A stretch of DNA of 64,000 nt, taken from NCBI GenBank assembly GCA_900107365.1, contig FNPS01000001.1, positions 1 through 64,000 on the forward strand, in the 5' to 3' direction. Position numbers and translations under genes: made by a program. Source of the DNA: Flavobacterium aquidurense. Lineage in GTDB: Bacteria; Bacteroidota; Bacteroidia; Flavobacteriales; Flavobacteriaceae. Below are positions 60,106-61,518 of the stretch, in pieces; positions within the stretch are counted from its first letter, which is position 1; the number at the start of each line of letters is the position of its first letter. A model generated the notes under the pieces. That model had not been told where the DNA came from and did no database searches. It worked only from the letters and a program-made list of their open reading frames with translations.

Positions 60106-60609
60106 TTACTTCGTTCTTGCGGCAAAAATAGCATCCAAACCTTCCATTGCAATAGTGAAACCTTCTTTGAAACCCATTTCGATGATTTTTTCCAGATCAG
60201 AAAGGTTTTCATGTTTAATTGCAATATCCACAATAGTTGCATCACCTTGCTTAGAGAAATTTACATTCCAGTCAGAACGCGGAAAATCTTTGTTGAGGTT
60301 GCCTTCGCTGTCGCTAAAAGCATCCAGGTATTTAAAGTTCGATTTTGGCGTAATCGAAGTAAAATCGGCAATAGCCCAATGCTCTTCGCCTTGCGGACCA
60401 ACCATGGCATATAATCTTCGTCCGCCTTCTTTAAAATCCATGCTTTTTGTTCTCGCTTTCCACGGAGCCGGCGCCCACCATTGGTCCAGTCTTTCAGGTT
60501 CTGTCCAGGCAGACCAAACATGGTCAAGAGAGGCATTAAATTCGCGTTTTACATTTACCGTACTATTTTCTTTGTCCACGGTAAAATTCATCAAGAGATT
60601 AGATTTCAT
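60106..60609 (-). CDS. SRPBCC/AHSA1-domain protein
   Basis: This 167-residue START-like fold (AHSA1 family) has VKREFNASLDHVWSAWTEPE then LDQWWAPAPWKARTKSMDFK, the hallmark opening. Such proteins bind hydrophobic ligands. It is translated from an ATG that overlaps the end of the ArsR-type gene by 11 bases, a very common regulator-SRPBCC pairing. Its role is unknown; ligand-responsive control by the neighbouring regulator is possible. Confidence 0.93.
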   Translation of the reverse strand: MKSNLLMNFTVDKENSTVNVKREFNASLDHVWSAWTEPERLDQWWAPAPWKARTKSMDFKEGGRRLYAMVGPQGEEHWAIADFTSITPKSNFKYLDAFSDSEGNLNKDFPRSDWNVNFSKQGDATIVDIAIKHENLSDLEKIIEMGFKEGFTIAMEGLDAIFAARTK

Positions 60610-60925
60610 TTTCTTTAGATTTTAGATTCATTAATACTTGATCCAACTGACTAAAACGGGTTTCCCAAATTTCCTTAAACTGTGCTAGCCATTTGTCAAT
60701 TTCTTTCATTTTATCAATTTTTAGTTGGTAGTAGATTTCTCTTCCGACTTTTTTCTCGGCTAATAATTCGCATTCATTCAGAATTTTAATGTGTTTAGAA
60801 ACGGCTTGTCTCGTCGTATTAAATTGCTCTGCAATGGCATTTGGTGTCAATGCATTTGTAGCAATCAATACTAAAATTGCTCTTCGTGTCGGGTCGGCAA
60901 TGGCCTGAAAGATATCCCTTTTCAT
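60599..60925 (-). CDS. ArsR-family winged-helix repressor (SdpR-like)
   Basis: This 108-residue regulator has a winged HTH (IADPTRRAILVLIATNALTP, then TTRQAVSKHIKILNECELLAEKKVGREIYYQL, residues about 8-68). No cysteine metal-binding motif of ArsR/SmtB type is visible (no CVC), so it is unlikely to sense metals through that site. The C-terminal helix KWLAQFKEIWETRFSQLDQV probably dimerises. It overlaps the SRPBCC gene and has two operator-like palindromes in its promoter, arguing for autorepression. Confidence 0.93.
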   Translation of the reverse strand: MKRDIFQAIADPTRRAILVLIATNALTPNAIAEQFNTTRQAVSKHIKILNECELLAEKKVGREIYYQLKIDKMKEIDKWLAQFKEIWETRFSQLDQVLMNLKSKENEI

Positions 60926-60945: not shown

Positions 60946-60985
60946 GCAACTAATCAGTTGCAAATATAGGCAATCTTTTGGTTGC
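60946..60985. promoter_or_regulatory. Two operator-like palindromes for the ArsR-type repressor
   Basis: GCAACTAATCAGTTGC (60946-60961, perfect 6-bp arms, 4-base spacer) overlaps the end of the -7 box and the start-site region. GCAATCTTTTGGTTGC (60970-60985, one mismatch) lies within the -33/-7 spacer. Centres are 24 bases apart, about two helical turns. Confidence 0.7.
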
Positions 60986-60990
60986 GCAAA
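60961..60990 (-). promoter_or_regulatory. Promoter of the ArsR-SRPBCC operon
   Basis: Minus-strand TTTG (60990-60987), 18-base spacer, TATATTTG (60968-60961). It is the best promoter match in the window; the ATG follows 35 bases later. Confidence 0.82.
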
Positions 60991-61043
60991 ATAATTTTAT
61001 GATTTTTTAAGATATTTTTTTTAGAGTAAAAGTGCAGTTGATT

Positions 61044-61433
61044 TTATTTCGGCCAGTACAACACATTAAATTTATGACCATCCGGATCAGAAAATCCAAA
61101 GAAATAACCTTTTTCAAAGCTTTGAGGTTCAGCGAAAATTTTTCCGCCCGCATTTTTAACTGCCAACAATCGTTGATGCACTTCATCTATACTTTCAGCC
61201 GAAAGCGAAAATAGTATTTCATTGCCCTGCTTTAAATCGGCAACTTCATCATTTATAGCCCATTTAAATCTTTCTTTTATAAAAAAATGAATTATAAAAT
61301 CATCATCTCCAAAACAAAAACTCGTCAGTTCTGTATTGGTACCATTTGGTTTAAACCCCAATTTGCTGTAAAATTCGGTTGTTCGCGCTAAATCTTCTAC
61401 ACCTAAATTGGCCCATATTTTTTTAGTTTTCAT
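61044..61433 (-). CDS. VOC-superfamily (glyoxalase/bleomycin-resistance-like) protein
   Basis: This 129-residue protein (ATG at 61433 chosen because MKTKKIWANLGVEDLARTTE starts the fold; the frame is open upstream to 61475). It has the paired beta-alpha-beta-beta-beta pattern: FYSKLGFKPNGTN, CFGDDDFIIHFFI, then AVKNAGGKIFAEPQSFEKGY and FGFSDPDGHKFNVLYW. Members include lactoylglutathione lyases and dioxygenases. Metal ligands are not obvious, so the activity is undefined. Possibly accessory to the adjacent ArsR/SRPBCC genes. Confidence 0.88.
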   Translation of the reverse strand: MKTKKIWANLGVEDLARTTEFYSKLGFKPNGTNTELTSFCFGDDDFIIHFFIKERFKWAINDEVADLKQGNEILFSLSAESIDEVHQRLLAVKNAGGKIFAEPQSFEKGYFFGFSDPDGHKFNVLYWPK

Positions 61434-61518
61434 AAGATTCGTTTTAAAAATTAGAACTTTAATCCCGCTATCCAATAATAGTCGTGTACTAAATTTACGA
61501 ATTTTAAATTAGAATTAT

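Follow-up and report, generated by a model that had tools for sequence, protein, structure and literature searches.

Paired palindromes as predicted autoregulatory operators of ArsR-SRPBCC promoters, and a proposed recognition code linking repressor helix and operator letters

The window analysed here, a stretch of 64,000 nucleotides from Flavobacterium aquidurense, contains two palindromes in the promoter of an ArsR-SRPBCC gene pair, and these are very probably operators at which the ArsR-type repressor, the product of the next gene, regulates its own promoter. The window promoter itself looks like an ordinary autoregulated ArsR promoter; what appears unusual is the protein-operator code that can be read from its relatives. 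Based on sequence comparison, we consider it likely that the ArsR-SRPBCC family, in bacteria and in haloarchaea, shares a single 5-N6-5 operator geometry and a modular, transferable recognition code, with a specificity that could be re-programmed letter by letter. The letters of the operator half-site appear to track residues at the start of the recognition helix, i.e., residue 40 with letter 2, residue 41 with letter 4, residue 44 with letter 5 and, across phyla, residue 39 with letter 1. Written out in full, the code assigns letter 1 by residue 39 (R for G, L for T, Q for A), letter 2 by residue 40 (Q for C, P for T), letter 4 by residue 41 (A for A, T and often V for G) and letter 5 by residue 44 (K or R for C or T, L or Q for G).

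Genes and promoter of the window

The features of the locus, all on the minus strand, are as follows.

60106..60609, minus strand: SRPBCC/AHSA1 gene, 167 aa; Pfam AHSA1 at 64 bits (cut-off 22.1)
60599..60925, minus strand: ArsR-type winged-helix repressor gene, 108 aa; recognition-helix residues R39, Q40, A41 and K44
60946..60961, minus strand: predicted proximal operator, GCAACTGATTAGTTGC, read from the sequence; -5 to +11 if +1 is 60956
60961..60968, minus strand: -7 box, TATATTTG; its final G also opens the proximal operator
60970..60985, minus strand: predicted distal operator, GCAACCAAAAGATTGC, read from the sequence; -29 to -14, flanked by the -33 and -7 boxes
60987..60990, minus strand: -33 box, TTTG; -34 to -31, one base from the distal operator
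61003..61008, minus strand: A-tract, about -53 to -47
61044..61475, minus strand: glyoxalase/VOC-family gene, upstream of ArsR on the same strand

The ArsR ORF comes first and overlaps the SRPBCC/AHSA1 ORF by 11 bp. The window ArsR scores above the family thresholds of Pfam (HTH_5, 31.1 bits with a cut-off of 22; HTH_20, 36.3 bits with a cut-off of 27) and of NCBIfam HTH_metalloreg (NF033788; 73.9 bits, cut-off 55), while its 74.3 bits for NCBIfam SdpR (NF033789) fall under the cut-off of 100 for that subfamily. The AlphaFold2 model (pLDDT 88.3) has a helix at 39-51, strands at 55-60 and 63-68 and a helix at 70-107, which corresponds to a predicted winged-helix fold with a long C-terminal helix, and the top PDB structures retrieved with this model by Foldseek were ArsR-type proteins. 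In this model, the recognition helix carries residues 39, 40, 41 and 44 in its first turns.

ArsR/SmtB metalloregulators proper carry a metal-binding Cys/His cluster in alpha3 or alpha5. No such classical ligand cluster was found in the sequence of the window ArsR, whose 108 residues include one Cys (C52) and one His (H45, within the recognition helix). Because of this composition, the NCBI label “metalloregulator” should not be read literally here, and the repressor would be released by some signal other than a metal bound at the classical ArsR/SmtB sites. Of the 161 cluster representatives of the 327-locus alignment described below, 153 have Cys52, directly after the recognition helix, and a second Cys occurs at alignment column 66 in 47 of the 161 clusters; with these two cysteines, redox or thiol sensing is possible. 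The SRPBCC protein, judged by its fold family, may carry or modify a hydrophobic ligand.

The promoter, TTTG-N18-TATATTTG, spans 60990-60961 on the minus strand. Read in order, the intergenic sequence is TTTG-C-GCAACCAAAAGATTGC-C-TATATTTG, the last G of which opens GCAACTGATTAGTTGC, and the 18-bp spacer is occupied by the distal 16-mer with one base to spare at each end. The two 16-bp palindromes described in the earlier note are present at 60961-60946 and 60985-60970 on the minus strand, with their centers 24 bp apart, and their placement was also as described: the distal site falls within the -33/-7 spacer, and the proximal site overlaps the -7 box, by the last G of that box. The formula given there, GCAAnC-N4-GnTTGC, fits the distal site but not the proximal one, which has T and A at positions 6 and 11. 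The form common to both window sites is GCAAC-N6-RTTGC, and most orthologues have GCAAC-N6-GTTGC. The common form was matched three times in the 64-kb window, always at the paired site (shuffles: mean 0.21, largest 2), with three matches arising from two sites because the symmetric proximal site counts on both strands. The promoter pattern alone, with 4 matches in the window and 4.1 expected, is not unusual. The promoter has both the -7 box (TAnnTTTG) and the TTG-containing -33 box of Bacteroidota sigma-A promoters. In the portion of the F. psychrophilum start-site map available to us (PMC9723704), the sigma-A -7 box TAnnTTTG occupies -12 to -5, and with that spacing the +1 of the window promoter would be 60956.

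Conservation in the closest orthologues

We compared 80 orthologues, i.e., the best 80 of 540 relatives found in a scan of genome contigs, nearly all of them titled Flavobacterium. The earlier note had made its reading depend on the palindromes being conserved upstream of orthologues, and conserved they are: among these best 80 of 540, at least 8 of the 10 half-site letters are retained at the proximal site in 80/80 and at least 9 of 10 at the distal site in 71/80, all 71 at a distance of 24 bp. The proximal half-sites in the same best 80 are GCAAC/GCAAC in 61, GCAAC/GCAAT in 16 and others in 3. Eight of the 80 have lost the distal site while keeping the proximal one (L055, L056, L057, L061, L063, L066, L069 and L131). 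The TATATT of the -7 box is invariant in the 80 orthologues and its final two letters differ in a few, while a TTG is found 17-20 bp upstream of the -7 box in 52/80, which means that the -33 part is not universal. Further upstream, the A-tract (61003-61008) keeps A at 1.6 to 2.0 bits across the 80 orthologues, with flanking bases that are not conserved; it is possibly an UP-like element or a terminator tail.

A doubled 5-N6-5 geometry across ArsR loci

Genome sets of the family (199), class (395) and genus (101) were searched and, together with fetched regions and the 80 orthologues, yielded 327 ArsR loci, which group into 161 clusters at 85% identity. The window's own locus is one of the 327, and some genomes occur in two collections, which makes the 161 clusters the safer count. 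ArsR matches at E <= 1e-12 were found in 122 of the 395 genomes of the class. At 321 of the 327 loci, the ArsR gene has an SRPBCC gene nearby on its own strand (311 times downstream, 11 times upstream).

When the 130 bp upstream of ArsR were scanned blindly for 5-bp inverted repeats, a spacer of 6 was found in 87/161 clusters (shuffles 16.5 +- 3.5). Among other even spacers, 8 was found in 104/161 and 10 in 75/161 clusters (shuffles about 16), counts to which offset arms of these palindromes and the repeat between the two sites also contribute. When the scan was anchored on the -7 box only, a 5-N6-5 repeat with at least 4 of 5 pairs was found in 278/327 loci; of the remainder, 39 have fewer pairs and 10 have no such -7 box. 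The earlier note proposed to look for GCAAC-N-GTTGC at other ArsR-SRPBCC promoters; a doubled 5-N6-5 repeat was found before most of the ArsR-SRPBCC genes examined in Bacteroidota. Of the 300 loci that have a proximal site, 281 also carry a distal copy, recognized by how closely its half-sites resemble the proximal ones (shuffles: mean 4.2, max 9). Among these 281 loci, the center-to-center distance is 26 bp in 158, 24 bp in 99, 25 bp in 14 and 27-28 bp in 7, with one locus each at 20, 39 and 40 bp. The distal copy is immediately preceded by TTG plus one base in at least 117 of the 136 clusters having such a copy (counted over the top 20 contexts). These contexts suggest that the position of each copy is mostly fixed relative to one promoter element, the -33 box for one and the -7 box/start for the other; the distance between the copies therefore follows the promoter spacer. 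A strict helical phasing of the two sites was rejected, because the distance varies across loci (24-28 bp, and 41-42 bp in eight others).

The right half of the proximal site is often GAAAC and not GCAAC (25 of 148 RQAVSKH loci), an asymmetry that the simple code leaves unexplained. Outside Bacteroidota, on a Metabacillus plasmid (L401, Bacillota), an ArsR-SRPBCC pair with the ArsR helix GRTAVSKH is preceded by two identical copies of the palindrome GACACCAATTAGTGTC, spaced by 26 bp, i.e., the same doubled layout with a different half-site.

The doubling raises the possibility of a cooperative unit, in which two ArsR dimers touch or jointly distort the DNA and thereby give a tight, steep autorepression, and the presence of a second copy at nearly all loci with a proximal site would suit it. 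The center distance is nonetheless 24, 25, 26, 27 or 28 bp in 278 of the 281 loci, and the step from 24 to 28 bp alone shifts the angular relation of the dimers by more than 100 degrees; the distal copy can also be lost, as in the eight orthologues listed above, and each copy keeps to its own promoter element. We regard such a unit as possible though doubtful, and the “tight cooperative” part of the earlier note is not supported, given this varying spacing and the 8/80 orthologues without a distal site. Simple occlusion, with each palindrome tracking its own promoter element, would fit as well as cooperativity.

Covariation of recognition helix and half-site

Each class of recognition helix comes with its own half-site: RQA-V/I-SKH with GCAAC, RPA-K with GTAAC, RQT-K with GCAGT/C, RPT-K with GTAGT/C and RQA-L with GCAAG. 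Covariation was examined in 150 of the 161 cluster representatives, the 11 without a usable half-site being left out; half-sites were entered by hand for eleven representatives (10 operon-head sites and L322). In these 150, Q at residue 40 goes with C at letter 2 in 93/93 and P with T in 51/55; A at residue 41 goes with A at letter 4 in 105/105 and T with G in 37/39; and K at residue 44 goes with C or T at letter 5 in 127/129 and L with G in 9/10, N being mixed. When all 108 protein columns were scanned with no prior choice, the best predictors of letters 2, 4 and 5 were residues 40, 41 and 44. Leave-one-out accuracy was 97.3% for residue 40 and letter 2 (baseline 65%), 98.0% for residue 41 and letter 4 (baseline 74%) and 76% for residue 44 and letter 5 (baseline 66%).

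Disjoint contrasts in which one of the three residues differed and the other two matched came out as predicted in 42/51 (residue 40), 40/44 (residue 41) and 17/20 (residue 44), with none reversed; these contrasts are not all independent by descent, and they use 37 of the 48 held-out loci described below (those with an anchored site present). Tree-based independent pairs on supported branches numbered 3, 1 and 3 for residues 40, 41 and 44, too few for significance, and on average none went against the rule. In an expanded set with noisier operator calls, the pairs numbered 4, 2 and 3 (residues 40, 41 and 44) and 1, again with no significance, and the residue-40 pairings averaged 2.5 as predicted and 0.5 opposite. 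A palindrome caller that used DNA only made calls in 75 of 78 new loci and was noisy, picking other palindromes in many AT-rich promoters; we therefore relied on the anchored and rule-based tests.

The code has irregular places. With serine or valine at residue 41, letter 4 is ambiguous: valine as an extra rule for G is followed at L433, L485 and L514, is mixed at L520 and gives A at L522. Letter 3 departs from A in L401, L408 and NolR. Paralogue pairs share a code in 11 of 107 cases (67 genomes), with 17.3 expected from identity-matched between-genome pairs, a difference that is suggestive only.

Predictions at held-out loci

The residue-39 rules, and Q44 in other phyla, were formed after L398-L418, 21 plasmid-borne loci from several phyla, and for that reason these loci are not counted as held-out. 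The rules were fixed in writing before further loci were fetched, and a success was defined as the predicted operator at 90% or more of the called letters.

Of 48 unseen Bacteroidota loci, from genomes of the same phylum and a different class, 45 had the predicted operator (shuffles: mean 0.27, max 2), compared with a mean of 2.6 and a max of 6 when predictions were swapped between the 48 loci. The predicted class was the unique best in 44/48, and the operator was missed at L444, L452 and L463. With the training set as reference, 37 of the 40 clusters below 85% identity succeeded, as did 23 of the 24 loci below 70%. Rare combinations predicted beforehand were right in every case (GTAAG 3/3, GCAAG 3/3).

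In other phyla, the predicted operator was present in 5/9 (shuffles 0.05) and 7/12 (shuffles 0.04) unseen loci, or 12/21 together, several of the second 12 sharing plasmid records. Salinigranum and Halostagnicola, both haloarchaea, are among the successes. In only 3 of the first nine did the predicted class stand alone as the best, in part because letters left uncalled produce ties. The predicted site was missing in 9/21 (L425, L429, L430, L431, L491, L499, L500, L510 and L521), where L491 had no usable upstream sequence scored and was counted as a miss, and L500 has a perfect TTAGC palindrome in place of the predicted site.

The link between helix and operator might also reflect shared ancestry alone, with a few clades each keeping their own helix and their own operator and no contact between the two, and the small number of supported independent changes in the tree test is in line with this. 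Against it, the four Q/P by A/T combinations show letters 2 and 4 to be controlled separately, the rare combinations were predicted correctly beforehand, columns outside the helix predict worse, and the same rules hold in the 12 successful loci of distant phyla and haloarchaea. We consider ancestry alone improbable, and favor a code read through the recognition helix.

Operators displaced from the ArsR gene

Of 49 loci without a good anchored site, 17 have the rule-predicted operator no more than 150 bp away and 20 have it 460-700 bp upstream; in the other 12 it was absent from the available upstream DNA (only 16 bp at one of these). Seven of the 12 are RPT-K loci, with T at half-site letter 5 or other departures in place of the C of the rule.

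Ten loci were examined closely, chosen since the stretch before ArsR looked coding. The operator class expected from the helix was found 460-700 bp upstream in 10/10, and none of the other three classes tried was found; in 9 of the 10, the operator precedes an upstream ORF. The operator of the right class thus appears to move to the head of the operon when ArsR is internal, in all ten loci examined. At six loci (L036, L037, L190, L243, L309 and L327), ArsR follows a dihydrofolate-reductase/RibD-like gene (named by eye), and the operator is upstream of the latter. At three others the order is reversed, with an SRPBCC-like gene (named by eye) leading to ArsR and the operator pair before the first gene, spaced by 28 bp (L335, L356) or 24 bp (L336). 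Eight distant ArsR relatives (L357-L364; helix RQG-V/I-TKH) have GCAAC pairs 42 bp apart (41 in one), about 500 bp upstream, and belong to the 20 displaced loci. Their spacing is close to four helical turns, and they may represent a form of the doubled operator with both sites in phase.

Palindromes in promoters can belong to unlinked regulators, and the ones described here could in principle be read by another DNA-binding protein that ArsR merely adjoins. We rejected such a second regulator as very improbable, as residues 40, 41 and 44 of the adjacent ArsR's own helix are the best predictors of the letters among 108 columns, and the right-class operator shifts to the operon head when ArsR is internal in 10/10 loci. 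Even less credible is an RNA hairpin in the 5' leader (an attenuator or stability element) with no DNA operator: the proximal inverted repeat could pair if fully transcribed, but this reading was rejected because the inferred start, going by the -12 to -5 position of the -7 box in the available portion of PMC9723704, lies inside the proximal palindrome, which would leave its left arm untranscribed, and the distal copy is entirely upstream of the start.

Proposed mechanism

Autorepression by the ArsR protein encoded just downstream, as the earlier note had predicted, is strongly supported by the sequence, since the palindromes are conserved and covary with the recognition helix. In the mechanism that we propose, one ArsR dimer would occupy each palindrome, placing one recognition helix in each half-site, and the bound dimers would bar RNA polymerase from the -33 and -7 elements and the start. 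ArsR and the co-transcribed SRPBCC protein would be made when the repressor is released, and otherwise not.

Paralogues, regulon and significance

In the whole 5.4-Mb genome, the operator pattern has 23 matches, compared with 11 for a reversed control, and among the 23 exact matches there is no adjoining pair besides that of the window. A search of the same genome for the -7 box joined to the operator, with 2 mismatches at most, gave 77 matches (control 33) and is too loose to define a regulon. Two ArsR paralogues were found in this genome at E <= 0.001. One of them, G000:C6:74990 (L002), is 69% identical to the window ArsR, with helix RQSVSKH and doubled GAAAC/GCAAC-type sites, and cross-talk between it and the window ArsR is predicted because their operator sites are closely similar. 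The other, C15:539207, has helix RPTVSKH and GTAGT-type sites, and should be insulated from the window ArsR sites. No ArsR relatives were found in the viral contigs scanned.

ArsR-SRPBCC pairs are common and are often annotated as metal sensors, though the window ArsR is without metal ligands. Should the code be confirmed at the bench, the operator, and hence the regulated genes, could be predicted from the protein alone across phyla; given a modular code, the protein would be enough to spell out the operator for much of the group labelled “metalloregulator ArsR/SmtB”. The family would also offer a clean natural system for the joint change of recognition helix and operator, as well as a set of small repressors with differing operators.

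Comparison with known systems

The ArsR/SmtB metalloregulators SmtB, CzrA and CmtR are relatives of the window ArsR in sequence and fold, and their classical metal ligands are missing from it (one Cys, one His). The SdpR autorepressor (NF033789) resembles the window ArsR in being a small ArsR-like autorepressor adjoining a partner gene; its partner, however, is SdpI, whereas that of the window ArsR is an SRPBCC protein, and a perfect 5-N6-5 palindrome was not seen at the one SdpR locus inspected (L418).

NolR of Sinorhizobium, an ArsR-family protein with solved structures (PDB 4omy, 4omz and 4on0), one of them with DNA, shares the winged-helix ArsR fold and was retrieved at Foldseek rank 13. 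Its operator motif, as worded in the accessible part of PMC12445080, is (A/T)TTAG-N9-A(T/A), which by our own reading can be taken as a 5-N6-5 palindrome like the window sites. For the NolR helix, GLSQSALSQHL, the rules give A at letter 1, A at letter 4 and G at letter 5 (Q39, A41 and Q44), and these agree with the motif in that form. NolR differs in having T and not A at letter 3, in its residue 40 (S), which lies outside the rules, and in repressing nodulation genes in trans. HlyU has helix letters identical to those of NolR. The 17-bp HlyU palindrome given in the accessible part of PMC4330345, TAATTCAGACTAAATTA, is not of the 5-N6-5 form, unlike the window sites, while the bottom strand of the HlyU probe in that same part contains, by our own reading, one match to the NolR motif (TTTAG-N9-AT); as an outside anchor for the code, HlyU is therefore mixed.

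No comparable recognition code for ArsR-family proteins appeared among the open-licence matches listed, as judged by title and start of abstract. Studies of MerR (PMC5045206; position correlations) and IclR (PMC8222616) look similar in kind in their accessible parts. A result of the same kind exists for the LacI family, for which the accessible part of PMC2978694 describes a family-stable code in which autoregulation links few amino acids with few operator letters. As described there, the LacI code connects two residues with two letters, whereas the ArsR code proposed here would connect four residues with four letters and reach into the archaea.
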